A stretch of DNA of 64,000 bases from Arthrobacter globiformis (GTDB lineage: Bacteria > Actinomycetota > Actinomycetes > Actinomycetales > Micrococcaceae). Position numbers and translations under genes: made by a program. Of this stretch, positions 3,670 to 64,000 are shown piece after piece (the first letter of the stretch is position 1; every line of letters starts with the position of its first letter). The notes below the pieces were generated by a model that was not told where the DNA came from, made no database searches, and saw nothing but the letters and a program-made list of their open reading frames with translations. The stretch lies in contig NZ_JAUSZX010000001.1 of NCBI RefSeq assembly GCF_030818015.1, forward strand, positions 3,658,001 through 3,722,000, in the 5' to 3' direction.

Positions 3670-3723
3670 AGCGCGAACGGACACTTGGGGCCCTCAGGCG
3701 GGGCCCAAGTGTCCGTTCGCGCT
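3670..3723. repeat. Long inverted repeat with perfect 20-bp arms (possible terminator)
   Basis: The left arm at 3670-3689 begins AGCGCGAACGGACACTTGGG and its exact reverse complement is at 3704-3723, with a 14-base G/C-rich loop that can pair further. It sits 14 bases past the stop of the sugar kinase, where a terminator would act, but no clear T-run follows on either strand. An 18-base copy of the right arm with one mismatch recurs at 19856-19873, which suggests a dispersed family rather than a plain terminator. Confidence 0.75.
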
Positions 3724-3737
3724 CAGTCATGCCCGGG

Positions 3738-4724
3738 TCAGGCCTGGTCGCGGACCAGCAGCGGGACACCGAAAACAGGGTCCTGCTCCAGGATCCGCAC
3801 GTCACGGACTCCTGCCACGGCCAGGTGCTGCCGGAACGATTCCTGGAGCCGGACTACGTTCATGCCCAGGCCGCTGCCCAGGATAACCGGACCGTCCAGC
3901 CCCAGCTGCCGGAGGACCTGGGCAGCCATGTCCGCCAGGTCCTTGCCCGCCTGGTCGATCAGGTCGCGGCTTACCCTGTGGCCGGCGTCGGCCGCCTCCA
4001 CCACGAGCCGGGCCCGCTGCGCCCAGAAGCGGCGTCCGGTGTCGGGGGAGTGGAAGAGCGCGATCAGCTTGTTCGGGTCATCGGTGTTGCAGGAGTCCAG
4101 GAGCGCCCTGGTCAGCTCGTCCGGTTCCTGACCCTGGTTCATACGCCGCAGGCTGTGCCGGACGGCCTCCCTGCCCAGCCAGTAACCGCTGCCTTCGTCG
4201 CCCAGGAGGTAGCCCCAGCCGCCGGCCCGCGCCTCATCGCCGTCCCCGTTCGTTCCCCAGGCCGCGGAGCCGGTGCCCGCAATGACGGCGACGCCGCTAC
4301 TGGCGCCGCCGGCCGCGAGCAGGAGCCGGGAGTCGTGGACCACCGTAATCCGGGCCCCCGGGGCGTAGGGCTCAATGAGGGCGGCCAGGGCGGCGGCATC
4401 CTCATTGGTGTCGATCCCGCCGGCGCCGGCATAGACCTGCGCCACCGGGCCACTGCCGATTTTGGCGAAAAGCTCCGCGAGATGCGCGGCGGCCTCCTCA
4501 CGGCTGACGTTCTGGACGTTGGCGCTTCCCACGCTCTGGTCGGCTACCGGTTCCCCGTGCTCGAAGCGGACGCCCCTCGTCTTGGTGCCGCCGATGTCGA
4601 GGCCGATCACGACGTCGTTGGGCAGGGCGGAGCCGGACGGGACCGTGCTGGACGAAACAGCATTGGACGGGACGGCACTGGACGGGACAGGGGCCGCACC
4701 GGATAGGTTGTCAGAGTTAGTCAC
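3738..4724 (-). CDS. BadF/BadG/BcrA/BcrD-type sugar kinase (N-acetylglucosamine kinase-like)
   Basis: ASKHA-fold ATPase, most like N-acetylglucosamine/N-acetylmuramate kinases that phosphorylate amino sugars in cell-wall recycling or catabolism. Motifs: phosphate-1 loop GLDIGGTKTRG near residue 41, phosphate-2/adenosine motif VIAGTGSAAWG, then GYLLGDEGSGYWLGREAV, diagnostic of this kinase group. Length 328 aa from the GTG at 4724. The first ~37 residues are low complexity (Ala/Val/Pro/Ser) and come from an imperfect 15-bp DNA repeat around 4640-4690, so the true start may be internal, close to VVIGLDIGG. It is divergent from the nitronate monooxygenase gene with only 36 bases between starts. 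Confidence 0.85.
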   Translation of the reverse strand: MTNSDNLSGAAPVPSSAVPSNAVSSSTVPSGSALPNDVVIGLDIGGTKTRGVRFEHGEPVADQSVGSANVQNVSREEAAAHLAELFAKIGSGPVAQVYAGAGGIDTNEDAAALAALIEPYAPGARITVVHDSRLLLAAGGASSGVAVIAGTGSAAWGTNGDGDEARAGGWGYLLGDEGSGYWLGREAVRHSLRRMNQGQEPDELTRALLDSCNTDDPNKLIALFHSPDTGRRFWAQRARLVVEAADAGHRVSRDLIDQAGKDLADMAAQVLRQLGLDGPVILGSGLGMNVVRLQESFRQHLAVAGVRDVRILEQDPVFGVPLLVRDQA

Positions 4725-11909: not shown

Positions 11910-12335
11910 ATGGATTGGTTCTCTTACTTCTTTCAGGTCAACTGGCTTGCGGTGCTTCTTGCCTTCGTCGCAAGCATGGCCATCGGCTTCGTCTGGTACC
12001 TGCCCGCTGTGCTCGGCAAGCGGTGGATGGAGGCCGTCGGCAAGACGGAAGAGGACCTCAGGAACACTAATGGCGGCGCCGGAATCTGGGTTCCCATGAT
12101 GGCAGCTGCAGCCCTAACAGCCATCCTGCTCGCAGTTCTGATCAGCAAGCTCGGACTCGACAGCGCGCTGGCCGGCGGATCGTTCGCTTTCGTGCTGGCA
12201 GTGGTGTTCCGTGTGGGCGGCCACGTAATCCACAACGGTTTCGCCGGACGTCCTGCCGCGGTGACGCTCATCGACTCCGGCCACGATGTCCTCGCTGTGA
12301 CAGCCGCCGGAGTCATCATCGGCGCGCTGTCCTGA
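11910..12335 (+). CDS. DUF1761 family membrane protein
   Basis: 141 aa, four predicted membrane helices. The N-terminal pattern LLAFVASMAIGFVWYLPAVL followed by GKRWM is the hallmark of DUF1761, a family of unknown function. The ATG at 11910 lies nine bases after the AsnC-type gene, so they are probably cotranscribed. The stop codon falls inside the first unit of a tandem repeat that fills the space to the next gene. Confidence 0.87.
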   Translation: MDWFSYFFQVNWLAVLLAFVASMAIGFVWYLPAVLGKRWMEAVGKTEEDLRNTNGGAGIWVPMMAAAALTAILLAVLISKLGLDSALAGGSFAFVLAVVFRVGGHVIHNGFAGRPAAVTLIDSGHDVLAVTAAGVIIGALS

Positions 12336-12400
12336 CCCAATGCGGATGTCCTGACCCCAACGCGATGTCCTGACCCAACGCGATGTCCTGACCCAAATAG
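12328..12400. repeat. 17-19-bp tandem repeat, four units, starting on a stop codon
   Basis: Units start with TGTCCTGACCC at 12328, 12347, 12366 and 12384 (19, 19, 18 and 17 bp). The first contains the TGA that ends the DUF1761 gene, so the stop-codon neighbourhood has been copied three more times, up to 18 bases before the GTG of the next gene. It looks like recent slippage or unequal duplication. Confidence 0.9.
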
Positions 12401-20770: not shown

Positions 20771-21094
20771 TTAGCCCCAGTGCGGGGGCTTCTGCTCCTT
20801 CAGCCACGCGTCGTGGTCGTTGCCGGATTCTGCGTCGCCCCAGGTGCGGGGATCGTCCTCGGCTGCACGTTTGGGGACCACGCCAGTCCGCTGCTGCCCG
20901 TCCTCTTTGGCGCGGCGCGCCTTTGCGGGCTTCTCGCGGTCCGCGGACTGCTGGTCTTTGCGTTCGGCCCCGTCTTGGCGCTCGGGCCCGTCTTTGCGTT
21001 CGGCCCCGTCTTTGCGTTCGGCCCCGCCTTGGCGCTCGGGCCCGTCTTTGCGTTCGGCCCCGCCTTGGCGTTCGGTCCCGCCGTCGGATATCAC
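20771..21094 (-). CDS. Small repeat-containing hypothetical protein
   Basis: 107 aa, unrecognised. Residues ~6-48 are a hexapeptide repeat of the type (A/P)-E-R-(K/Q)-(D/G)-G, encoded by an 18-bp tandem repeat; the C-terminus DDPRTWGDAESGNDHDAWLK followed by EQKPPHWG looks conserved and non-repetitive. Highly charged, no membrane segment. The ATG overlaps the TGA of the large helicase-like gene by four bases (ATGA at 21091-21094), which argues for coupled translation. Confidence 0.65.
   Translation of the reverse strand: MISDGGTERQGGAERKDGPERQGGAERKDGAERKDGPERQDGAERKDQQSADREKPAKARRAKEDGQQRTGVVPKRAAEDDPRTWGDAESGNDHDAWLKEQKPPHWG
20972..21086. repeat. 18-bp tandem repeat inside the small charged ORF
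   Basis: About six units alternate TTGCGTTCGGCCCCGTC-like and TTGGCGCTCGGGCCCGTC-like sequences, giving hexapeptides in the minus-strand protein. It lies directly beside the 15-bp repeat at 21205-21316 but has a different period and sequence. Confidence 0.85.
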
Positions 21095-24000
21095 AGCGGG
21101 CCTTTCTTCCGTTCCGTGGCCGGCCGTTCCAAGCCGGGCTCAGAACCGAAGCCTACTCCCGCGCCGGCGGCGTCGGAATCGAAACCGTCCCCGCCACCGT
21201 TCGCCTGATCGGTGCCAGCCTGATCGGTGCCAGCCTGATCGGTGCCAGTCTGATCAACGTCCCTCTGATCAGCGCCTGTCTGATCAACGTCCATCTGATC
21301 AATGTCCGTCTGTTCCGCACCCGGCGAGTGCGCGTCCGCCAAGACCGCCTCGGTTGCACCCCGATCGGGTGCTTCCCAGCCGCTCTGGCCCCCATCGTCA
21401 CCGTTCGGGTCGTCGCCGAAGCTGCCATCCATGCCTTGGTACGAGTCCTCCCCCAGATCGGGCTCGAAGTCGCCCACCGCAAGGGTGCTGACGTCGTCAT
21501 CCAGGAAGAATCCCGGCGCCCCCACGGAGCGAAGCGTAGGGGCAGGCTTCTCAAGCCCGAGGTACCCGCCGATCCTGTCGGCGCACGCCGAGGGATCTGT
21601 GAAGACCTCGATGGTCCACAGCGGCATGTACCGCCAGCCGAGCCGCTCCAGCAGCTGGGGGCGCAGCCGGCTGCGTTCCCGGACTGTCATCTGCCGGTAC
21701 TGCTCGGTGCCGTCCGATTCGATGGCTACCGGCCGTGGAATATCGGCCTCGTCCTGGCCCATGGTGCTGAGCGGATCGGCCGCGGCCACGACGTCGATGA
21801 CGCCGTCGTACTGGTGCCAGACGCGGGCACCGCGGGCCCGCAGCCGGTCGCCGAGATCGGCAACCAGCGGATCAGCCCCCAATGCCTGTTCACTTGCAGC
21901 TGCCCTGGACGCAGGCGTCCCCAGGTCCGTGTTGCCGGAGATCTCCCGGTCGAGAAGTTCGAAGAGATCGACGGCGCCGTGGGCCAGCCGCGTCCGGTCA
22001 AGGTCCTCTGGTTTGAAGCACGTCAGGACGTGAAGCGACTGCCGTGCCCGGGTCATGGCCAGGGCGAACTTGGCCCGGCCGCCCTCGGCGGACAGCGGAC
22101 CGAAGCTGTGCAGGGCGCGGCCGTGCGGCGTCCGCCCGTAGCCCGGCGAGAAAATCACGCGGTCGCGGACCAGCCCCTGGGCACGCTCCAGGTCCACGAC
22201 CCGGAAGGATTCATCACCTGCTGTGAAGAATCCGGACAGCGACGGGTAGTTGGGCAGCTGCAGCCGGATGGACTCGCCGATGCGTGCCGCGTGCCGGAGG
22301 CTGGCAGTCACAACCGCCAGCGAGGTGCGGGGACGGAGCCGCGCGTGCTCGAACACGAGCTCCACCACCCGGTTCACTTCGGCCACCACCGATTCGACGC
22401 CCTCATGGTCAGCGCTGGGCAGGCCCGTGCCGTCGGGCAGATACTCCACCGTCAGCGCACGGTCCAGCCCCGTGGCCGACTGCCCCTCGGGGAGGCGGCG
22501 GAGGCTTCCGTCGTAAAAGTTCTTGCTCAGCTGCAGCACCAGGTCCTCGTCCACCGCGCGGTAGACAGAGCGCAGCGGCGCCGTCGGCAGCACTGCCGAA
22601 AGTGCGGTGAACGCGCTTTCAACACTTTGGTGCGACTGTTCGCCGGCGGCGAGCCGCTCCACGGCAACGGTAAAGGTGCGGGGGCTGGCGATCCTGTCGT
22701 CGCCGAAGGCGATCACCTGCCGGGCGCGCGCGACGGCGGGGAGGACCGCCTGCAGCGACGTCGCTTCGGCGTCGAGGATCACCACGGCGTCAAACTTCTG
22801 CTCGGCAGGCAGGAGGCCGGTCATGAGGTAGGGGCTGACCGACCAGACAGGCACCAGCATGGGAACCAGCCCCGGTGCCTGCGCCGTCAGCGCAGCCAGC
22901 GTGACCCGCCCGTCCTTGAGCAGGCTCCGGAGCAGGTCCGCCTGGCGGGCATGCTCCTCGATGCCAGCGCGCCAGCGTTCAGCCAGCTTCCACCGCAGCC
23001 GCCCGGCACCGCTGGCGATGTGGGCGTTGTCCGCGAGCCGGTACTCCGCCTCCAGCTGGCGCAGGGCGTCGCCGTCGGACATGGCCAGGTAGTCGTCACC
23101 GCTGATCATCGCCTCGAGCGCCGACTGCCACCAGGCCAGGTCAAGTTCGGCAGCGACGGACCCGGCGCCGACCTCGCGCTCCGAGAGATCTGCCAGCAGC
23201 TCCCCCAGCCCGTGCTCGCGCATGTTCTCGATGAGCAGCGTTCGCTCGGGCAGGGTCTGCAGCGTCTGTGTGTCCGCGACCAGCCGTTCCAGACGCTCCA
23301 TGAGCTCCGGGTAGGGAATGTTTTCGAGCGAACCGCCCGCAGCCGTATGCCGCAGGGCATCACCCAGCATCTTCATCTCGCGGGTAAGTCCGCGGTGCAT
23401 GATGCTGATTTCCGCCAGGCCGGACGGCACCGCCGGATGCCGCTGTGTGGTGGCGTACCCGGCCCACTGGGCACGCTGTTCCTGGACCAGCACCAGCGAA
23501 CTGTGAAGATCGGCAATGTGCACGCCCGGGCGGACGTACTCCTTGGCCACCCGGCGCAGGCGGGACCGCTGCATGGAGGCCATGTCGATGCCGCGCTCCC
23601 TGCGCCAGGACGAGGACGCCGTCGCGGAAATCAGGTCCGTCACGGGCCGGTCAAAAATGTCCGGCGTGAATTTGTCCAGGCTTTCGCGGACGGCCACCAG
23701 AAGCTTGAGCTGGGAGCCCCATTCGGCGAAGGTGGTGCCCAGGCGGATTTCGGCGTGGCTGGCCACGTCCTTCATCCGTTCCTGCAGCAGCGGCAGCTTC
23801 TTCGCCACCGCACGCGCCAGCTCCTGCGCTTCCTCGGTTTCCTTGCGCGTCACCAGCCGTGCACCGTGCCAGGGGCTGGTGGTCGATGCCCTGCTGAACG
23901 CACCGAGTTCGGCGGCGCGCTTCAGCCGACCGGCCAGCTCCTCGCGGTCCCGGATGCTGTCCAGGACGCTGCGCTTGAGGCGGACGGTGGTGGCCGGGGC

Positions 24001-55976: not shown

Positions 55977-56102
55977 CAGGGCACGCCGGGGCGCAGTCGA
56001 AACGGTTTTAACCTGTGCATGCTAAATACCCTGGCCGGCTTTTCCCCGGCAGTACCGGGGTGGCACTCCCCGGCCGGTAGGCTTCGGGCCCGGGAAGACC
56101 GG

Positions 56103-56515
56103 GTGCCAGAAACCTTCTTCAGCGACGCCGCCAGGAAAGCGGCGGCCGAGATACAGAAATCCCTGGCCTCCCGCGAGACGCCGGCGCCCTTGGCGAAGCT
56201 CTCACAAACATCGCCGACACCCTGCGGACGGGCATCATCCCCGCCGACCTCCGTTCCTCCCTCTACAAGGCGGCTGCGCTGATCCCCGGCGTCACCATGG
56301 TGGACCGCCAGGCCACCGTTGACGGCAAGACCGGTACCGCCATCGGCATAATTGCACCCGACCCCGGAAGCAGAACGGACATCATTATCGATCCGGCCAC
56401 CGGTCTCATGATCGGAGAACGCGACGTCCTGCTCAAAGCCTCACTTGGTTTCCCGGCGGGAACAGCGATTTCGTGGACCTCCGTCAGCACAACGGTGGTC
56501 AACGCGGCGCCCTGA
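56103..56515 (+). pseudogene. Frameshifted remnant of a CU044_5270-family protein
   Basis: The frame ending at 56515 reads LRTGIIPADLRSSLYKAAAL then IPGVTMVDRQATVDGKTGTA and IIIDPATGLMIGE, which is the usual C-terminal domain of CU044_5270-family actinobacterial membrane proteins. It has no start, and the upstream portion (ETFFSDAARKAAAEIQKSLA) continues in another frame, so the gene is frameshifted and N-terminally truncated. A strong hairpin follows. The boundaries are approximate; the 126 bp before it hold nothing clear. Confidence 0.7.
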
Positions 56516-56539
56516 CGGTTCCAGGACGTTCGAAGACGC

Positions 56540-56577
56540 GGGCGCATCTGCCGGGGAACAACCCGGCAGATGCGCCC
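56540..56577. terminator. Strong 16-bp hairpin after the pseudogene
   Basis: GGGCGCATCTGCCGGG at 56540-56555 and its exact complement at 56562-56577, loop GAACAA. No T-run follows on the plus strand, so it may be a Rho-dependent or orphan hairpin. It precedes the mshA promoter. Confidence 0.65.
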
Positions 56578-56700
56578 CACTTCAGCGTCCGGTACATGAG
56601 CCGAACGGCGCCGTTCTGTGGACGGTTGAGGAGTAGTGTTTTATCCGATGCAGTTCCAGCAGTTCAAGCAGTTCAAGCAGTCCGGAGAGGAGGGAGGGCC

Positions 56701-57978
56701 GTGTCTGTGATCAAGCGTGTGGCGTTCCTGTCACTGCACACCTCCCCGATGGAGCAGCCCGGTTCCGGGGACGCCGGCGGTATGAACGTCTACATCCGCG
56801 GCCTTGCCTCCGCCCTGGCCGAAACCGGCGTCGAAGTGGAGATCTTCACCCGCTCCACCGCCGCCGGGCAGCCCGCCGTCGAACACCCCGACCCCGGCGT
56901 CTGCGTCCACAACGTCCTGGCCGGCCCGCCCCGCAAACTCCCCAAGGAAGAACTCCCCGAACTGCTGCACAGCATGGTCGCTGAAATCGAGCGCGTCCGG
57001 GGCCAACAGCCCCACGGCCGCTACGACCTCATCCACTCCCACTACTGGGTCTCCGGCGTCGCCGGCCTCGAACTTTCCCGACTGTGGAACGTCCCCCTGG
57101 TGCACACCATGCACACCATGGCCAAAGTCAAGAATCTCCTCCTGCACTCCGGCGAACAACCCGAACCCCGACGCCGCGAAGACGGCGAACATCACATCGT
57201 CGACGGCGCCACCCGCCTGATCGCCAACACCACCGCCGAAGCCGCCGAACTCGTCTCCCACTACGGCGCCGACTTCGACCACATCGACGTCGCACCCCCC
57301 GGCGTGAACCTTTCGGTCTTCACCCCGGCATTCCGCACCCAATCCCGGACCGCCCACGGCATCGCCCCCGGCACTTTCCACCTGCTCTTCGCCGGCCGGA
57401 TCCAACGCCTCAAAGGCCCGCAGATCCTGCTCAAGGCCGCCGCCCTGCTGCGCCGGCGCCGCCCCGACATCGAGCTCAAGCTCACCATCCTCGGCGCGCT
57501 CAGCGGCGCCAAGGACTTCAACCTCAAAACCCTCGTCAGTGCCGCCGGACTGGACGACGTCGTCACCCACCACCCGCCCGTCAGCGCACCCGAACTTGCC
57601 GGCTGGTTCCGGGCCGCCGACGTCGTCGTCATGCCCTCCTACAGCGAATCCTTCGGACTGGTGGCCCTCGAGGCCCAGGCCTGCGGCACCCCCGTCCTCG
57701 CCACCCGGGTCGGCGGACTCACCCGCGCAGTCAGCCACGGCCGCACCGGCCTGCTCGTGGACGGTCACCATGCCGCCGACTGGGCCGATGCCCTCGAAGC
57801 CCTCCATGACGACCCCACCACCCGCCACAACATGGGCACCGCCGCCGCCATCCACGCAGCAAACTCCGGCTGGCAACGCACCGCCGCCATCACCCTCGAC
57901 AGCTACCACGCGGCCGTCGACGAATATGCCTCCAGCCACCCCATGGCCACCGTTTACGGGTCTCGGCTCACCGGCTAA
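56701..57978 (+). CDS. mshA: D-inositol-3-phosphate glycosyltransferase
   Basis: First step of mycothiol synthesis: UDP-GlcNAc plus 1D-myo-inositol 3-phosphate. 425 aa GT4 enzyme. N-terminal HTSPMEQPGSGDAGGMNVYI is diagnostic of MshA; DLIHSHYWVSGVAGLEL, LFAGRIQRLKGPQILLKAAA and PSYSESFGLVALEAQACGTP (EX7E) follow. GTG 56701 with GGAGGGAGGGCC directly before it; the in-frame run back to 56473 includes the pseudogene and was rejected. Just upstream a 9-bp repeat CAGTTCAAG occurs twice. Confidence 0.96.
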   Translation: MSVIKRVAFLSLHTSPMEQPGSGDAGGMNVYIRGLASALAETGVEVEIFTRSTAAGQPAVEHPDPGVCVHNVLAGPPRKLPKEELPELLHSMVAEIERVRGQQPHGRYDLIHSHYWVSGVAGLELSRLWNVPLVHTMHTMAKVKNLLLHSGEQPEPRRREDGEHHIVDGATRLIANTTAEAAELVSHYGADFDHIDVAPPGVNLSVFTPAFRTQSRTAHGIAPGTFHLLFAGRIQRLKGPQILLKAAALLRRRRPDIELKLTILGALSGAKDFNLKTLVSAAGLDDVVTHHPPVSAPELAGWFRAADVVVMPSYSESFGLVALEAQACGTPVLATRVGGLTRAVSHGRTGLLVDGHHAADWADALEALHDDPTTRHNMGTAAAIHAANSGWQRTAAITLDSYHAAVDEYASSHPMATVYGSRLTG

Positions 57979-57999
57979 ACCCTTCCGGAAAGGACAACG

Positions 58000-59712
58000 A
58001 TGTCTGACAGCACTCCCCTGAGCGGTACCGGCCAGAGCAGCACTCCCCTGAGCGACCTGGACATTGCCCGCAGGGCAGTGCTGCGGCCGATCGAGGAAAT
58101 CGCCGCATCCGCGGGCATCGATGCCGGGGCAGTGGAGCTCTATGGCCGCTACAAGGCCAAGATTGACCCCGCGAAGCTGTCAGCCCCTGCGCCGGCCGGA
58201 AAAGTGGTTCTGGTTTCGGCGATGTCGCCCACGCCCGCCGGAGAAGGAAAATCAACCACCACGGTGGGACTGGCGGATTCGCTGGCGCGGGCGGGCCACA
58301 AGGTGATGGTCGCGCTGCGGGAGCCCTCGCTGGGCCCCATCCTCGGCATGAAGGGCGGGGCCACGGGCGGCGGGCTGTCCCAGGTTCTGCCGATGGACGA
58401 GATCAACCTGCATTTCACCGGCGACTTCCATGCCGTCACGTCGGCCAACAATGCCCTCATGGCCCTCGTGGACAACCACATCTACCAGGGCAACGAACTG
58501 AACATCGACCCGCGCCGCATGACGTTCAAGCGGGTCCTGGACATGAACGACCGTTCCCTTCGCGAGGTGGTCATTGGACTCGGCGGCCCCACCCAGGGGG
58601 TCCCGCGCCAGGACGGCTTCGACATCACGGTCGCATCCGAAATCATGGCGGTGTTCTGCCTTGCCACCGACGTCGCCGACCTGCGGGACAGGCTGGGCAG
58701 GATCACTTTCGGCTACACCTACGACCGGGCGCCGGTTACCGTTGCTGGCCTCGGCGTGCAGGGCGCGCTGACGCTGCTGCTGAAGGACGCAATCAAGCCG
58801 AACCTCGTCCAGACCATCGCCGGTACCCCGGCACTGGTCCATGGCGGCCCGTTCGCGAACATTGCCCACGGGTGCAACTCGCTGATCGCCACGCAGACCG
58901 CCCGGCGGCTGGCCGACATCGTGGTGACGGAGGCGGGATTCGGGGCCGACCTCGGCGCGGAAAAGTTCATGGACATCAAGGCGCGGATCGCTGACGTGGC
59001 GCCGTCCGCCGTCGTGGTGGTGGCCACCGTTCGCGCACTCAAAATGCAAGGCGGCGTTCCGAAGGACCGGCTGAACGAGCCGAACGTGGAGGCTGTGGCG
59101 GCGGGTGTGGTGAACCTGCGCCGCCATGTCCGGAATGTGGAGCGGTTCGGCGTAACACCGGTGGTGGCGATCAACAAGTTCCCTGGCGATACCCAGGAGG
59201 AGCTCGACTGGCTGCTCGGCTGGTGCGCCGGCGAGGGCATCCAGGCATCCGTGGCGGACATCTGGGGACGGGGCGGGGGCGGCGACGGCGGCGATGAGCT
59301 GGCTGCCAAGGTCGCCGCCGTGGTGAACGGGCCGTCGTCGTTCCGGCACCTCTACCCGCTGGACATGTCCGTGGAGGACAAGATCCGCACCATCGTCCAG
59401 GAAATCTATGGCGCGGACGGGGTGGACTTTTCGGTGCCTGCACTGCGCCGGCTGGCGGACATTGAGAAGAACGGTTGGTCCGGGCTGCCCGTCTGCATGG
59501 CGAAAACCCAGTACTCGTTCACGGACGACGCGTCGCGGCTGGGGGCGCCCAAGGGCTTCACCATCCATGTGCGCGACCTCATCCCCAAGACCGGCGCTGG
59601 CTTCATCGTGGCCCTGACCGGAGCGGTGATGACCATGCCCGGCCTTCCGGCCGTTCCTGCGGCAATGCGGATGGACGTGGACGACGACGGCAACCCGGTC
59701 GGCCTCTCCTAG
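58000..59712 (+). CDS. fhs: Formate-tetrahydrofolate ligase
   Basis: 570 aa; makes 10-formyl-THF from formate, THF and ATP. P-loop [67 protein letters not shown]-type [20 protein letters not shown] and [15 protein letters not shown] 58000 has GGAAAGG eight bases before it and follows mshA by 21 bp. Cotranscription with mshA is likely. The first ~20 residues contain a duplicated [18 protein letters not shown] pair. Confidence 0.97.
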
Positions 59713-59714
59713 AT

Positions 59715-59883
59715 CCCTCCTCACCTCCCATCGCTTCAACCCAAACCCCTCCTCACCTCCCGCCGCTTCCACCCAGACCCCTCCTCACCTCCCGCCGCTT
59801 CCACCCAAACCCCTCCTCACCTCCCGCCGCTTCAACCCCAACCCTTCCTCACCTCCCGCCGCTTCCACCCAAACCCCTCCTCA
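59715..59883. repeat. 32-bp tandem repeat, five units plus partial (array A)
   Basis: Units start at 59715, 59747, 59779, 59811 and 59843, each 32 bp and each opening CC(C/T)TCCTCACCTCCC; a partial unit ends at 59883. The last one contains the stop codon of the DUF559 gene. It fills the convergent gap between fhs and that gene. Read on the minus strand each unit starts GAGGAGGGG and ends GGAGGT. Confidence 0.95.
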
Positions 59884-60840
59884 GACGGCATCGGCAAATC
59901 CGGACGCTTGAGGATGGTCCACCTGGCTCGTTCGCATCGCACGCTTGATCAGGCGGATGGCCCGCTCGAAGTGGTCAGCCAGGTCCTCCTTGCCGAACAC
60001 AACAACGGTCCACCCAGCAGCCTCGAATGCTTTGTCACGCCGCCTGTCGCTGAAGATTTGGGGCTCGAGAAGGTGATGCCCGCCGTCGTACTGTATGGCC
60101 AGCCGCCGACGCCTGTAGCCGAGATCGGCAGTCGGCCCGACGGCCTTGTCCTCTCGCAGTGGCACCTGCAGTTGAGGCTCCGGAAGGCCTGCGTCCTCCA
60201 TCGCGAGGCGGAGTAGCGACTCGGGCGCAGAATCCGCTCCGACGCGCATCCGTTCGAGCGCGGCGCGCGCCCGAACCACACCCTGAAGATTCGGATGGCG
60301 GGCGACCAGGGAACGCAGTCCATCAAGCGTGTCGAACGGCTCGGTGCGGTCTTCGAATTCCGCTCTGGGAACGCGGATCAGTTCATCGCCCATGCAGACC
60401 AGTTCGCTCTCCGACAGCCGTCTTGCCATATCGAGCCAGGTCCGGGACCTGCTGCTTATTCGAATCCCGTCGACGAATTCGATCTCGTCCTCGGATGCCA
60501 ACACCGAGTGCCCGATCACGCCTCTCCGCCGCACCTCCGGCAGGGAATGGGGTTTGCTCAAATGGAACTCAGTCGAATCTGCCAGCCATGACGGCAGGAT
60601 CTGGTTTCGAATCCGTGCCGCCGTGACATGGGAAATCCAGGCACCGGGCGTTGCCGCAGACAGTGCCCGTGCCGCGGCCTCGAGCTCGAAACTCCAGCCA
60701 GTCGGGCGGTACAGTTCACGACTTACATGCGCGACGTCGGCCCGTCGCAGTCTGTTGGGTGGAACTCCGGACGCTTTCGCGGATCCCAGCGTGAAGGGGG
60801 CAGATACCAGACTGACAGGAAGATCGGTACGTCGTTGCAT
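59881..60840 (-). CDS. DUF559-domain protein (AbiEi-antitoxin-like N-terminus, endonuclease-fold C-terminus)
   Basis: 319 aa. N-terminal winged-helix-like region (LRRADVAHVSRELYRPTGW), middle containing RGVIGHSVLASEDEIEFVDG and SSRSRTWLDMARRLSESELV, and C-terminal Vsr/DUF559 fold (GPTADLGYRRRRLAIQYDGG, then RDKAFEAAGWTVVVFGKEDL). This layout is common for proteins related to AbiEi-type antitoxins; a toxin partner is not adjacent. ATG at 60840 chosen; the open frame upstream runs into repeat array B. The stop lies inside repeat array A. Confidence 0.78.
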   Translation of the reverse strand: MQRRTDLPVSLVSAPFTLGSAKASGVPPNRLRRADVAHVSRELYRPTGWSFELEAAARALSAATPGAWISHVTAARIRNQILPSWLADSTEFHLSKPHSLPEVRRRGVIGHSVLASEDEIEFVDGIRISSRSRTWLDMARRLSESELVCMGDELIRVPRAEFEDRTEPFDTLDGLRSLVARHPNLQGVVRARAALERMRVGADSAPESLLRLAMEDAGLPEPQLQVPLREDKAVGPTADLGYRRRRLAIQYDGGHHLLEPQIFSDRRRDKAFEAAGWTVVVFGKEDLADHFERAIRLIKRAMRTSQVDHPQASGFADAV

Positions 60841-60890
60841 ATGGCATTGTTGCTCGAAACTGACCCGGCTGGCAGAAGTTATCCACAGGT

Positions 60891-60971
60891 GGTGAAGCGT
60901 TCGGGTTCGGGCGACGAAACCTGACGAAGCGTTCGGGTTCAGACGGCGAAAGGTGAGGGAGGGTTTGGCGG
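60891..60971. repeat. 32-bp repeat, two units plus partial (array B)
   Basis: Units at 60891-60922 and 60923-60954, both with GAAGCGTTCGGGTTC, then a partial (GAGGGAGGGTTTGGCGG). It lies between the DUF559 start and the DUF2306 stop. Confidence 0.9.
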
Positions 60972-60979
60972 TGCGGGTT

Positions 60980-61516
60980 TTACTGCGGGCCTGCCACGGC
61001 CCCTGCTGAAGATGCAGCGGCCGCGGGCTGGTCGACCCGGCGCCCCGCGTGCTGGATTCGCCGGCCCTCACCGCGCCGCAGGGATATGAAGACGACGGCC
61101 ACGCTGAGCGCCACCAGAGCGGCAATGTACAGGGCCGTCGGCAGATCCTCGGCCAGCAGGCGGGGAATCGCACGGCCCGGCACCGAGACGGCGAAGCCGA
61201 ACGCCACAGCGATGCCGATATAGCTCCCGATCATGTTCCCCCGGTGCGCGGGGATGTTCCGGCGCACCGCGCTGATGAGCCCGAGCGTGACGGTCACGAT
61301 CGTGAACGCCGAGAGCCCGTGAAGCCAGCTGAAATGTCCGTCACTGACGATCCAGAAGCTGCTGAAACAGACGTAGTACATGGCCGCGACCCACAGGTGT
61401 CCCATGGTGCGGTGGATGCGGTCACGGCTGCGCCGAAGGATCTGGACCGGTCCGATGGCAATGACAAAGAGGGCGGCAATGACGTGGCTGGCAAGCAGTA
61501 CATTCCAAGGCTCCAT
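60980..61516 (-). CDS. DUF2306 membrane protein
   Basis: 178 aa, four predicted helices: HVIAALFVIAIGPVQILRRS, LWVAAMYYVCFSSFWIV, FTIVTVTLGLISAV, SYIGIAVAFGFAVSV. HRTMGHLWVAAMYY is the DUF2306 hallmark. The Ala-rich C-terminus is cytoplasmic and the role is unknown. Divergent from a MerR regulator that probably controls it. Confidence 0.87.
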   Translation of the reverse strand: MEPWNVLLASHVIAALFVIAIGPVQILRRSRDRIHRTMGHLWVAAMYYVCFSSFWIVSDGHFSWLHGLSAFTIVTVTLGLISAVRRNIPAHRGNMIGSYIGIAVAFGFAVSVPGRAIPRLLAEDLPTALYIAALVALSVAVVFISLRRGEGRRIQHAGRRVDQPAAAASSAGAVAGPQ

Positions 61517-61523
61517 GCACCTA

Positions 61524-61581
61524 GGATAGGAGCACTATCCAGCCGTGTACATCAGGATAGCCAGCCCGGCAGCAGCTATCC
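61524..61581. promoter_or_regulatory. GGATAG/CTATCC dyads between DUF2306 and merR
   Basis: GGATAG at 61524-61529 faces CTATCC at 61535-61540 (5-base spacer). GGATAGC at 61555-61561 faces GCTATCC at 61575-61581 (13-base spacer). These four copies in 58 bp sit in the 99-bp divergent promoter and are the likely MerR binding sites. Confidence 0.65.
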
Positions 61582-61615
61582 AAAGGGCTACCATCCGCCG
61601 AGGAACGGAGCGGGC

Positions 61616-62239
61616 ATGCAGCTGAAGGAACTCAGCGAGCGGACGGGAGTCTCCCCCGCCAGCATCAAGTTCTACCTCCGCGAAGGGCTGCTGCCCGCGG
61701 GCCGTTCTATTCACGCCACCCGGGCGGAGTATTCAGAACATCACGTGAGCCGGCTGGAACTGATCCAGGCCCTGCGGCGTGTGGTCGGACTGAATATCGC
61801 CCAGATCGGCACCCTGCTCAGAATGGCCGACGGCGGCGCACCCCGCCTTGAGCTTTTGGCCGCGATCCAGCGCACGGTGCTGGGCCTCGACGAGGTGAGC
61901 ACGGAGCACGGCGACCTGCGCACACCGGCGGGTGACGCCGTCGTGCGTTTCCGGAACTGGCCGGACGTCCCGAGCGACGCCAGGAACGCCCTCAATGCCC
62001 AACTGGTCCTGATGGAAAGCCTCGGCGTGCCTGTCACAGCGGAGCTGCTCGACGCCTACAGTCAGGCGGTGGATGCCATTGCCGCAGTGAATATTTCGGC
62101 CACAACCGCGCCGGAAGACGTCAACGATCTGATCATGACGGCGGCCGTCGGGATGCATCTGCACGGCCAGCTGGTCCTGAAGCTGCTCGCCCTCGCGCAG
62201 GCGAGCCATGCGATTCGGCGCTATGAAGAGCACGCTTAA
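61616..62239 (+). CDS. MerR-family transcriptional regulator
   Basis: 207 aa. N-terminal winged HTH MQLKELSERTGVSPASIKFY and LREGLLPAGR, then VSRLELIQALRRVVGLNIAQ as the coiled dimer region. The long C-terminal domain is unrelated to metal-binding MerR types. ATG at 61616 begins the family motif; GGAACGGAGCGGGC lies upstream. Divergent from the DUF2306 gene; a hairpin and array C follow. Confidence 0.9.
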   Translation: MQLKELSERTGVSPASIKFYLREGLLPAGRSIHATRAEYSEHHVSRLELIQALRRVVGLNIAQIGTLLRMADGGAPRLELLAAIQRTVLGLDEVSTEHGDLRTPAGDAVVRFRNWPDVPSDARNALNAQLVLMESLGVPVTAELLDAYSQAVDAIAAVNISATTAPEDVNDLIMTAAVGMHLHGQLVLKLLALAQASHAIRRYEEHA

Positions 62240-62242
62240 ACA

Positions 62243-62278
62243 GCGATGCTCCCCCACCAGAAGGTGAGGAAGCATCGC
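62243..62278 (+). terminator. Imperfect hairpin after merR, overlapping array C
   Basis: GCGATGCTCCCCCACC at 62243-62258 pairs with GGTGAGGAAGCATCGC at 62263-62278 at 14 of 16 positions, loop AGAA. The right arm includes the start of the first repeat unit. Confidence 0.55.
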
Positions 62279-62345
62279 GTTAAAACCCGCAAGACGTGAG
62301 GAAGCATCGCCTCAAAACCTGCAAGAGGTGAGGAAGCGTCCGGGG
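62266..62345. repeat. 32-bp repeat, two units plus partial (array C)
   Basis: Units 62266-62297 and 62298-62329 both start GAGGAAGCATCGC and end GT; a partial (GAGGAAGCGTCC) runs to the ino1 stop at 62346. Same period and similar ends as arrays A and B. Confidence 0.92.
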
Positions 62346-63431
62346 TTAGCGGTCGAGGTCGCCGCGGATGAAGGCCTCAACCTTTTCGCGGGCGAGGTCG
62401 TCGTTGAACTGCTCCGGTGGGGACTTCATGAAGTAGCTGGAAGCGGAGAGCAGCGGGCCACCGATGCCGCGGTCCAGGCCGATCTTGGCTGCGCGGATGG
62501 CATCGATGATCACGCCTGCCGAGTTGGGTGAGTCCCAGACCTCCAGCTTGTACTCGAGCGACACCGGGGCGTCGCCGAAGTTGCGGCCTTCGAGACGGAC
62601 AAAAGCCCACTTGCGGTCATCCAGCCACTGCACGTAGTCGGACGGGCCGATGTGGACGTCCTTCGCGGCCAGCTCGGCCTCGACGTTGGACGTCACGGCC
62701 TGGGTCTTGGAGATCTTCTTCGACTCGAGGCGGTCGCGCTCCAGCATGTTCTTGAAGTCCATGTTGCCGCCGACGTTCAGCTGGTAGGTGCGGTCCAGCG
62801 TGACGCCGCGGTCTTCGAACAGCTTCGCCATGACGCGGTGCGTGATGGTGGCACCGATCTGGCTCTTGATGTCGTCGCCCACGATCGGCACGCCGGCGGC
62901 GGTGAATTTGTCCGCCCACTCCTTCGTGCCGGCAATGAACACCGGCAGCGCGTTCACGAACGCCACACCTGCGTCGATCGCGGCCTGGGCGTAGAACTCG
63001 GCGGCTTCCTGCGACCCAACGGGCAGGTAGCAGACCATGACGTCAACCTTGGCGTCCTTGAGGGCCTGGACAACGTCGACCGGCTCTGCAGGGGACTGCT
63101 CGATGGTCTCAAGGTAGTACTTGCCGAGGCCGTCCAGGGTGTGGCCGCGCTGGACCGTAACACCGGTGGGCGGGACGTCGGCGATCTTGATGGTGTTGTT
63201 TTCGCTGGCCAGGATCGCATCGGCCAGGTCGACGCCGACCTTCTTGCCGTCCACGTCGAACGCGGCAACGAACTGGACGTCGTTGACGTGGTAGTTGCCG
63301 AACTCAACGTGCATCAGACCCGGAATCGTGGCCTGGGGGTCGGCATCCCGGTAGTAATGGACACCCTGAACCAGCGAAGCGGCACAGTTGCCCACGCCGA
63401 CGATAGCTACACGAATCGGATTTGAAGACAC
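62346..63431 (-). CDS. ino1: Inositol-3-phosphate synthase
   Basis: Converts glucose-6-phosphate to 1D-myo-inositol 3-phosphate, feeding MshA and phosphatidylinositol. 361 aa. NAD fold [79 protein letters not shown] and [19 protein letters not shown]. Normal length for the actinobacterial type. GTG/ATG start at 63431, AAGGAG five bases upstream. The 178-bp upstream region is the promoter gap to the aldo/keto reductase; no motif I can name. Confidence 0.97.
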
Positions 63432-63609
63432 GGAACTCCTTTGAGAACAAACTTCATGTGCCCTGCGCGTCAGTACCTTGCTGTACGACGGCGTCTGACG
63501 GGCACCGCGCCACGCGGCGCACTTACCAGTCTAACCAAACGCCGCCGGGGCCGGCTTTGTTCCCGCCGTCCCCGGCCGCTTGATTACGTCTCATTTTTGG
63601 AGCGGGGGT

Positions 63610-64000
63610 TCAGACCCGCTGCGCCCAGAGGTTGATGTCGGATTCGACGGCGAACTCGTCGATCGCCGTCAGTTCCTCGCCGCTGAACTCAAGGTTGTTG
63701 ATGGCGGCCAGGGTGTCCTCGAGCTGCCTGACGCTGGACGCCCCGACGAGCGCCGAGGTCACCGGGGAGCCCTTGGGCTGGTCGCGCAGGATCCAGGCGA
63801 TGGCCATCTGCGCCAGCGACTGTCCGCGGCCGGCGGCGATCGCGTTCAGCCCCCGGACCCTGTCCAGTTTGTCCTCGGTCAGGGCCGATTCGGACAGGAA
63901 CCTCGCCTTGGCGGCCCGGGAGTCGGCCGGGACGCCGTTGAGGTAGCGGTCCGTCAGCATGCCCTGGGCCAGCGGGGAGAACGCGATAGAGCCGGCGCCC
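63610..64000 (-). CDS. Aldo/keto reductase, partial (YghZ/Kv-beta-like)
   Basis: C-terminal part of an aldo/keto reductase; the N-terminus lies beyond the right edge. Visible: FSPLAQGMLTDRYLNGVP, LAQMAIAWILRDQPKGSPV, TSALVGASSVRQLEDTLAAI and an end FAVESDINLWAQRV typical of L-glyceraldehyde-3-phosphate/YghZ-type reductases. Confidence 0.9.
   Translation of the reverse strand, partial: GAGSIAFSPLAQGMLTDRYLNGVPADSRAAKARFLSESALTEDKLDRVRGLNAIAAGRGQSLAQMAIAWILRDQPKGSPVTSALVGASSVRQLEDTLAAINNLEFSGEELTAIDEFAVESDINLWAQRV

Follow-up and report, generated by a model that had tools for sequence, protein, structure and literature searches.

Three neighbouring intergenic arrays of one 32-bp repeat, here called A, B and C, lie in a 64,000-nt stretch of the Arthrobacter globiformis genome (RefSeq assembly GCF_030818015.1, contig NZ_JAUSZX010000001.1, positions 3,658,001 to 3,722,000 of the forward strand; hereafter the window). 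At the level of the sequence, comparison within this genome and with its relatives gives a repeat family with a fixed period, a set orientation to stop codons, mostly conserved sites, a co-ordinated change of spelling, C-richness and, at a subset of sites, hairpins. We propose that A, B and C are copies of an inherited gene-end termination signal, anchored at the stop codon and built of Rho-loading arms with a hairpin cap at some sites, an explanation to which we give an even chance. The arrays are somewhat like Rho utilization (rut) sites and 3' elements of the repetitive extragenic palindrome (REP) type, yet they did not pass defining tests that we ran for REPs, U-tailed terminators and uptake sequences. 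No description of the 32-bp repeats was found in the literature searched, which left subscription papers mostly outside its coverage.

The arrays form one family

An earlier reading of the window (the original prediction) had proposed that gaps fhs/DUF559, DUF559/DUF2306 and merR/ino1 share repeats of a 32-bp period, and both the gap assignments and the shared repeat proved correct (Table 1). The best self-match fell at lag 64 or 32 for array A (0.841, 0.835) and at lag 32 for B (0.542) and C (0.613). Tandem Repeats Finder described array A as 59715-59883, period 32, 5.3 copies, score 289, and array C as 62264-62337, period 32, 2.3 copies, score 120; array B gave no report at a score of 40 or more and, at the self-match just given, cannot be said to consist of exact 32-bp units, as had been claimed. 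When A is read on the minus strand and B and C on the plus strand, the common frame that had been suggested, units begin with heads of the form GGTGAGG(A/G)(A/G)GCGT or close to it. A two-unit weight matrix scored A, B and C at 56.8, 45.5 and 56.1 bits, found no further site in the 64-kb window and reached 8 bits or more at 0 positions of a 400-kb control that was reversed and complemented. The training alignment contained units of A and C and none of B, yet B still matched in the genome-wide model search, with an E value of 2.2e-7. The three arrays thus align far better than chance and belong to one family. Searches of Rfam 15 gave no match above the gathering score in window positions 56000-64000 or in 8 loci, and the low-E microRNA rows that they returned were taken as palindrome artefacts.

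A two-unit pattern had 38 matches in this 5.1-Mb genome and 0 when reversed, and a sequence-only model, R1, had 103 matches at E<=1, which group into about 33 places, all on the largest contig. These places were listed by hand, with matches merged within 300 bp and the weak single matches at 935207 and 4010942 excluded; the former later proved orthologous to an array in the relative G077. On contig C1, 0 of the 33 places lie between 1.50 and 2.82 Mb and 22 between 3.7 and 4.94 Mb; the replication origin was not located by GC skew in 20 samples, and no open reading frame was recognised as dnaA in the first 4 kb.

Related genomes, which the original prediction had advised searching, also carry the family. 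The two-unit pattern occurred in 27 of 149 relatives, all of the same genus. R1 at an E value of 1e-4 matched 123 of 198 same-genus genomes, 56 of them at least five times as counted from the listing, and 16 of 245 genomes of the family, spread over 2 of its 32 genera. Across genome contigs at least 117 stretches carried the exact two-unit pattern, and among the matches listed (80 titles) all were from Arthrobacter or Pseudarthrobacter. These genus and family counts use the spelling of A. globiformis and miss other spellings: G077 gave 0 matches to that spelling, yet holds 102 copies of its own arm (0 reversed). Single heads are weak evidence, because the exact head GGTGAGGAAGCR had 14 matches genome-wide and 4 in the reversed control. 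An unbiased 400-kb sample of this genome had one periodic stretch at lag 32, a family member, and no more than at several other lags, so that we relied on the sequence model instead. The family is sparse, and its significance comes from shared sequence and position; a search for periodicity by itself would not reveal it.

Unit structure and orientation to genes

Distinct arrays numbered 280, of 2-7 heads each. In 262 arrays with a complete unit, positions 1-13 and 25-32 are conserved. They are contiguous over the unit joint and make a 21-nt block, roughly ACGCTYCCTCACNTYYYGCNG in the RNA of the host gene, while positions 14-24 form an 11-nt spacer that varies between arrays. Successive heads lie exactly 32 apart in 520 of 573 pairs. 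Adjacent units of an array are 0.91 identical in the block and 0.78 in the spacer; between arrays these values are 0.72 and 0.35. Units are thus copied locally, and the spacer changes its sequence over time but rarely its length. The unit consensus is not palindromic, and hairpins arise between separate arms.

The arrays face gene ends in a set orientation. With genes called by a home-made finder, a gene end within 30 bp of the unit's 3' side, for 232 distinct arrays at named loci, was a stop codon of an opposite-strand gene in 115 cases and a start in 13; on the 5' side of the same arrays there were 19 stops and 5 starts. In this genome (48 arrays, one overlapping a called gene) the 3' side had 20 stops and one start. 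A host stop lay at -20 to 60 nt for 145 of the 280 arrays, 105 of them at -1 to 15 nt, and 6 of the 280 overlapped a called gene. By order of arrays, 188 sites comprised 91 '-+' pairs, one '+-' pair, 50 '-' and 46 '+' arrays. The sole '+-' site, C1:4014113-4014293 (L132) of this genome, lies between two minus-strand genes. Neighbouring genes were convergent at 61, tandem at 53 and divergent at 6 of 120 classifiable sites, compared with 105, 249 and 104 of 458 background gaps of 60-600 bp, array gaps included. One-sided single arrays obey the orientation rule by 12 to 2 and by 6 to 3. Ten host proteins of this genome that we scanned are ordinary cell proteins, including PEP carboxylase, a formyl transferase, UbiA, COX15/CtaA, an ABC ATPase and a serpin.

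Composition and folding of the host-sense RNA

Read in the sense of the host gene, arrays are rich in C and poor in G (43.9% and 18.3%), with 0.283 YC dinucleotides per nt (Y, pyrimidine); for 150 control 3' flanks the corresponding values were 32.6%, 31.1% and 0.166. The minimum free energy, from random subsets of 60 arrays and 60 controls, was -0.19 kcal/mol per nt for arrays and -0.40 for controls. We then applied our own script for a first step like that of RhoTermPredict, with 78-nt windows, a C/G threshold and C at 11-13-nt steps (criterion from PMC6407284). At C/G >2, 135 of 278 arrays qualified in the host sense and 0 of 278 in the antisense direction, compared with 18 of 330 other 3' flanks. 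Array A in the fhs sense has 103 C and 11 G in 173 nt (C/G 9.36) and is almost unstructured (-1.6 kcal/mol over 148 nt); this fhs array has no hairpin, its best stem being 4. Array B has a C/G of 2.69 and a fold that is not significant (z 0.88). Array C has a C/G of 1.53 and ends in a capped hairpin with a 16-bp stem (z -4.95).

A 3' arm lay within 60 nt past the last unit in 44 of 121 named arrays with a host stop, and in 2 of 232 with shuffled flanks. The hairpins downstream of ino1 in 17 genomes, in the ino1 sense, had 56 G-U and 4 A-C pairs; at convergent sites the counts were 12 and 15. A symmetric count over named arrays with a partner (34 G-U and 27 A-C) is uninformative, because convergent sites have two hosts, and one-sided tests were therefore used. 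The G-U pattern leans towards a function at the RNA level.

Sites are mostly conserved and change spelling together

In most genomes listed, fhs and ino1 lie close together; here they are separated by DUF559, DUF2306 and merR. In relatives, the 3' flanks of the two genes hold 32-bp arrays or else one long hairpin whose core is related (for example, arms with CTATCACTTTTGG or GGGGTCACTTACGG); in G036 and G152, neither was seen by eye in the fhs flank. In 24 of 31 genomes (7 were dropped because the gap was one shared stretch), fhs and ino1 flanks matched each other at 28.3 within a genome and at 15.5 between genomes, a difference reached by 0 of 10,000 permutations. Local conversion could contribute to this likeness, since both ends lie in one gap, but sites elsewhere, in G002 and G077, reduce that doubt.

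For 23 of 27 arrays fetched from the near relative G002 (14 of 15 regions), this genome has an array no more than 250 bp from the projected position, with the strand unchanged. Four have no such counterpart, and for one of these our contig ends beside the site. Counterpart arrays differ in unit number. G077, which has another spelling, was compared at 30 loci, of which 17 matched the A. globiformis DNA compared and 14 of those fell at its family sites, with matching by extrapolated position within 500 bp, the weak 935207 match counted and L381 and L383 ambiguous; L377, L387 and L389 matched DNA away from family sites. At 11 shared sites, head positions 7-8 read GA in 37, GG in 16 and otherwise in 4 of 57 heads of A. 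globiformis, and AG in 44 of 54 heads of G077; loose heads of this kind also arise by chance, at 608 per 400 kb of control. Judged from these orthologous heads, dispersed sites that predate the split between A. globiformis and G077 have changed spelling in step. Nine G077 sites (within L370-L392) carry a related 37-bp palindrome consisting of a head, an 11-nt core near TTCTTSARGAA and an inverted head.

Five genomes are mixed, with a long hairpin at fhs, ino1 or both and array matches elsewhere: G053 (13 matches), G070 (9), G085 (11), G086 (7) and G089 (7). In G086 the arm of the long hairpin is itself rare, with 5 copies beside the 7 array matches. These genomes, together with the second family of A. 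globiformis described below, indicate that one spelling does not rule the whole genome in every species.

A proposed stop-anchored termination signal and its alternatives

In the mechanism that we propose, the unit is a conserved 21-nt block joined to an 11-nt spacer free to vary between arrays, and slippage multiplies units in place. Where the ribosome comes off, at the stop codon, Rho would load onto the C-rich arms, which lack structure, and transcription would end within the short gap. The last arm has an inverted partner opposite it at many sites, where the RNA could fold into a terminal hairpin; such caps, where present, may halt the polymerase or shield a trimmed 3' end. At many convergent gaps, separate arms belong to each gene.

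Several results weigh against this explanation. Rho has little sequence specificity, and it would leave the conservation of the block and its change of spelling unexplained. The milder threshold of C/G >1 does not discriminate, being passed by 188 of 278 arrays and 230 of 330 other flanks. In this genome a 3' partner was found in just 2 of 24 arrays with a host stop, by a strict test that misses the G-U-containing hairpin of array C. The 17 ino1 hairpins that carry the G-U excess are related by descent, and at other one-sided sites the excess is weak (14 to 6). No U-tailed terminator was predicted at the arrays, array C having a stem-loop alone. As to position, a called start was faced by 13 of 128 array ends within 30 bp; for 99 of 232 arrays the finder placed no gene end within that distance on the side where one was expected, and 5 overlapped a called gene. 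The order of arrays is reversed at one site, and 6 of 120 sites lie between divergent genes. The gene finder itself missed DUF559 in this window.

Since the sequence of the block is conserved, which Rho alone would not explain, our data suggest that some factor reads it. A broader view, possible but on the unlikely side, is that in Arthrobacter a sequence code labels a set of gene ends and is recognised by a putative sequence-specific RNA- or DNA-binding factor, with factor and sites changing together. It draws on the parallel difference at positions 7-8 between A. globiformis and G077 and on the match of fhs and ino1 ends within genomes. The main rival to the termination signal, which we consider rather unlikely, is a roadblock at the DNA level: the block would be a putative site for a DNA-binding protein, the 32-bp period of about three helical turns would set the sites on one face, and a bound row would stop RNA polymerase or insulate convergent genes in an orientation-dependent manner, with the spelling following joint changes of the protein and its sites. 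Such a row would account for a period held at 32 with spacers unrelated between arrays, for tandem copies mostly 31 apart in the second family and for gaps between inverted arrays that cluster at 1-3, 11, 22 and 32-33 bp. An open scan of gaps longer than 7 nt in 44 ortholog clusters, over periods 6-20, peaked at 10.6 bp, with about 0.004 in an off-lattice test of n about 16. However, the 11-bp gaps of G077 share one related palindrome and are not independent, G077 alone peaks near 12.3, and gaps of 4-7, 26 and 37 also occur, among others; the G-U excess and the C-richness point instead to RNA.

Other readings grant the arrays less, or something else. They might be long-established hairpin terminators, or elements for 3' stability, in which slippage has multiplied the 5' arm and gene conversion keeps the copies alike, the surplus units being idle. 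The likeness of units within arrays, spacers included (0.78 compared with 0.35), the single long hairpins with a related core that replace the arrays at fhs and ino1 in several relatives and the variable unit number would all follow. We nevertheless hold this to be improbable: the spacer is specific to each array, whereas different arrays resemble one another far more in the block, a pattern that whole-unit conversion would not produce, and the fhs array of this genome has no hairpin but retains phase, orientation and C-richness. That 105 of the 145 arrays with a nearby host stop lie at -1 to 15 nt recalls the stalling of ribosomes reported for REPs within 15 nt of the stop codon (PMC12306157), and, as has been suggested for those of Escherichia coli, a structure near the stop codon might stall ribosomes or stabilise the mRNA here as well; as the arrays are as a group less structured than other 3' flanks, and array A almost unstructured, this appears quite improbable. 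Mobile repeats of a selfish, REP-like kind, lodged in convergent gaps where they do no harm, would likewise be dispersed, intergenic and in inverted pairs, and might leave 4 of 27 G002 arrays without a counterpart. They would not be expected to occupy shared sites (23 of 27 in G002 and 11 compared in G077) or, as drifting inserts, to keep a strict orientation to stop codons, and the Y1_Tnp domain (PF01797, IS200-like or RAYT-type) was found in 0 of 13 genomes and 5 of 14 controls, which excludes the GTAG kind of REP mobility only. Single queries gave no plasmid match for array C and no phage match for array A. Mobility is thus not supported, and a selfish origin is very improbable. Of the two interpretations in the original prediction, the structured 3' end signal rather than random slippage is supported by the orientation, block, period and conserved sites; the mobile or duplicating element is for the most part not supported, although units do duplicate locally, within arrays. 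Equally remote to us is a DNA-uptake-like signal whose spelling spreads because transformation favours DNA that bears it. The DNA uptake sequences (DUS) of Neisseriaceae do combine a short core that does not vary with dialects of single species and with inverted pairs at terminators (PMC3630211). There are, however, about 1900 of them in 2.2-2.3 Mb, and they often lie within genes (PMC3630211), whereas there are about 100 matches in 5 Mb here, in tandem and at gene ends.

Comparison with known elements

With rut sites and Rho-dependent terminators the arrays share a C-rich, G-poor and weakly structured sequence placed right after the stop codon on one strand only. Rut sites are degenerate, whereas the arrays have a conserved 21-nt block, a co-ordinated change of spelling between relatives and, at many sites, a hairpin. 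Micrococcus luteus is sensitive to bicyclomycin (PMC4499133). The stem-loop after the stop codon in array C and in the fhs and ino1 hairpins of relatives, which has no U-tract, resembles the I-shaped hairpin terminators, lacking U, that PMC8269248 mentions for GC-rich bacteria; in the arrays, the arm sequence is conserved at many loci, 5' arms stand in tandem and some arrays have no 3' arm. The stem-loop followed by a U-tract of intrinsic terminators was not found at the arrays.

REPs and bacterial interspersed mosaic elements (GTAG and CGTC super-families) are also short dispersed intergenic repeats downstream of genes, often in inverted pairs and mostly in convergent or unidirectional gaps (PMC3733652). 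The REP unit is a palindrome of 20-40 bp, whereas the 32-bp unit has no hairpin of its own; the arrays have a 32-bp tandem phase and a fixed orientation to the stop codon, and most of their sites are common to a near relative, unlike the variable positions of REPs. The REP-associated tyrosine transposase (RAYT, IS200-like) that accompanies GTAG-type REPs was not found in the 13 genomes checked; REPs of the CGTC kind are without RAYT (PMC3733652). REPs also have an unpaired GTAG or CGTC tag at one end. In the arrays, positions 11-14 at the end of the head are (C/G)GT and then T or C, which gives a CGTC-like end in part of the units, but on both arms of a pair. The REP lists consulted in PMC3733652 contain no actinobacteria, and PMC12306157 gives a count of putative REPs for one Arthrobacter.

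The dialects of DUS have parallels here in a short common core (TCAC, by eye), a species-specific spelling at many sites at once and inverted pairs at gene ends. The arrays differ in their far fewer copies, gene-end position and 32-bp tandem period, and more than one element type can coexist in a genome. A thousand or more copies, with copies in genes, would mark an uptake sequence; we found 103 matches (E<=1), and 6 of 280 arrays overlapping a called gene.

To our knowledge, transcript ends in GC-rich actinobacteria are poorly mapped. The arrays offer a set defined by sequence, with about 33 places in one genome and relatives in more than 100 others, and with built-in controls in orthologous ends that differ in spelling, have or lack a hairpin, or are one- or two-sided. 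If the block does have a reader, co-variation with the changes of spelling would lead directly to it; should Rho be enough by itself, the arrays would be unusually clean natural rut sites, and the puzzle would become the spelling change in step.

Table 1. Arrays, host genes and related features of the window.
Feature	Position	Strand	Remarks
Array A	59713..59885	-	Six heads, spacing 32 bp; reverse-complement units run outward from the fhs stop codon
Array B	60888..60964	+	Three diverged heads, spacing 32 bp; about 15 bp downstream of the opposite-strand DUF2306 stop codon
Array C	62263..62345	+	Three heads at 62263-62339, spacing 32 bp; last head 6 bp from the opposite-strand ino1 stop
Array C terminal hairpin, ino1-sense RNA	62243..62278	-	Last arm and inverted 3' arm; 16-bp stem including G-U pairs
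fhs, formate-tetrahydrofolate ligase (array A host gene)	58000..59712	+	
DUF559 protein	59881..60843	-	TGA stop within the last array A unit; start codon approximate
DUF2306 membrane protein (array B host gene)	60980..61516	-	
MerR-family regulator	61616..62239	+	Convergent with ino1
ino1, myo-inositol-1-phosphate synthase (array C host gene)	62346..63431	-	
Second-family member, long hairpin	3670..3723	.	Arm CGAACGGACACTTGGGGCCC; just downstream of minus-strand gene 3738-4724

A second family and other repeats

A second family with a similar plan occurs in this genome. Its arm, CGAACGGACACTTGTGGCCCC, had 87 matches and 2 when reversed; it often faces an inverted copy and at times stands in tandem, mostly about 31 bp apart. 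One member lies in the window (Table 1).

Just upstream of the DUF559 gene, at 60879-60887, the window holds its sole exact copy of TTATCCACA, which we take to be a consensus DnaA-box-like sequence. A similar sequence, CTGTGGATAA, comes after the fhs element in several relatives. Positions 12323-12396 carry a tandem repeat of about 18 bp in 4 copies, CGCGATGTCCTGACCCAA, whose 12-mer GATGTCCTGACC had 0 copies in the 400-kb sample of this genome. Window positions 20954-21312 contain 18-bp and 15-bp tandem repeats, which, as multiples of 3, are perhaps coding repeats.

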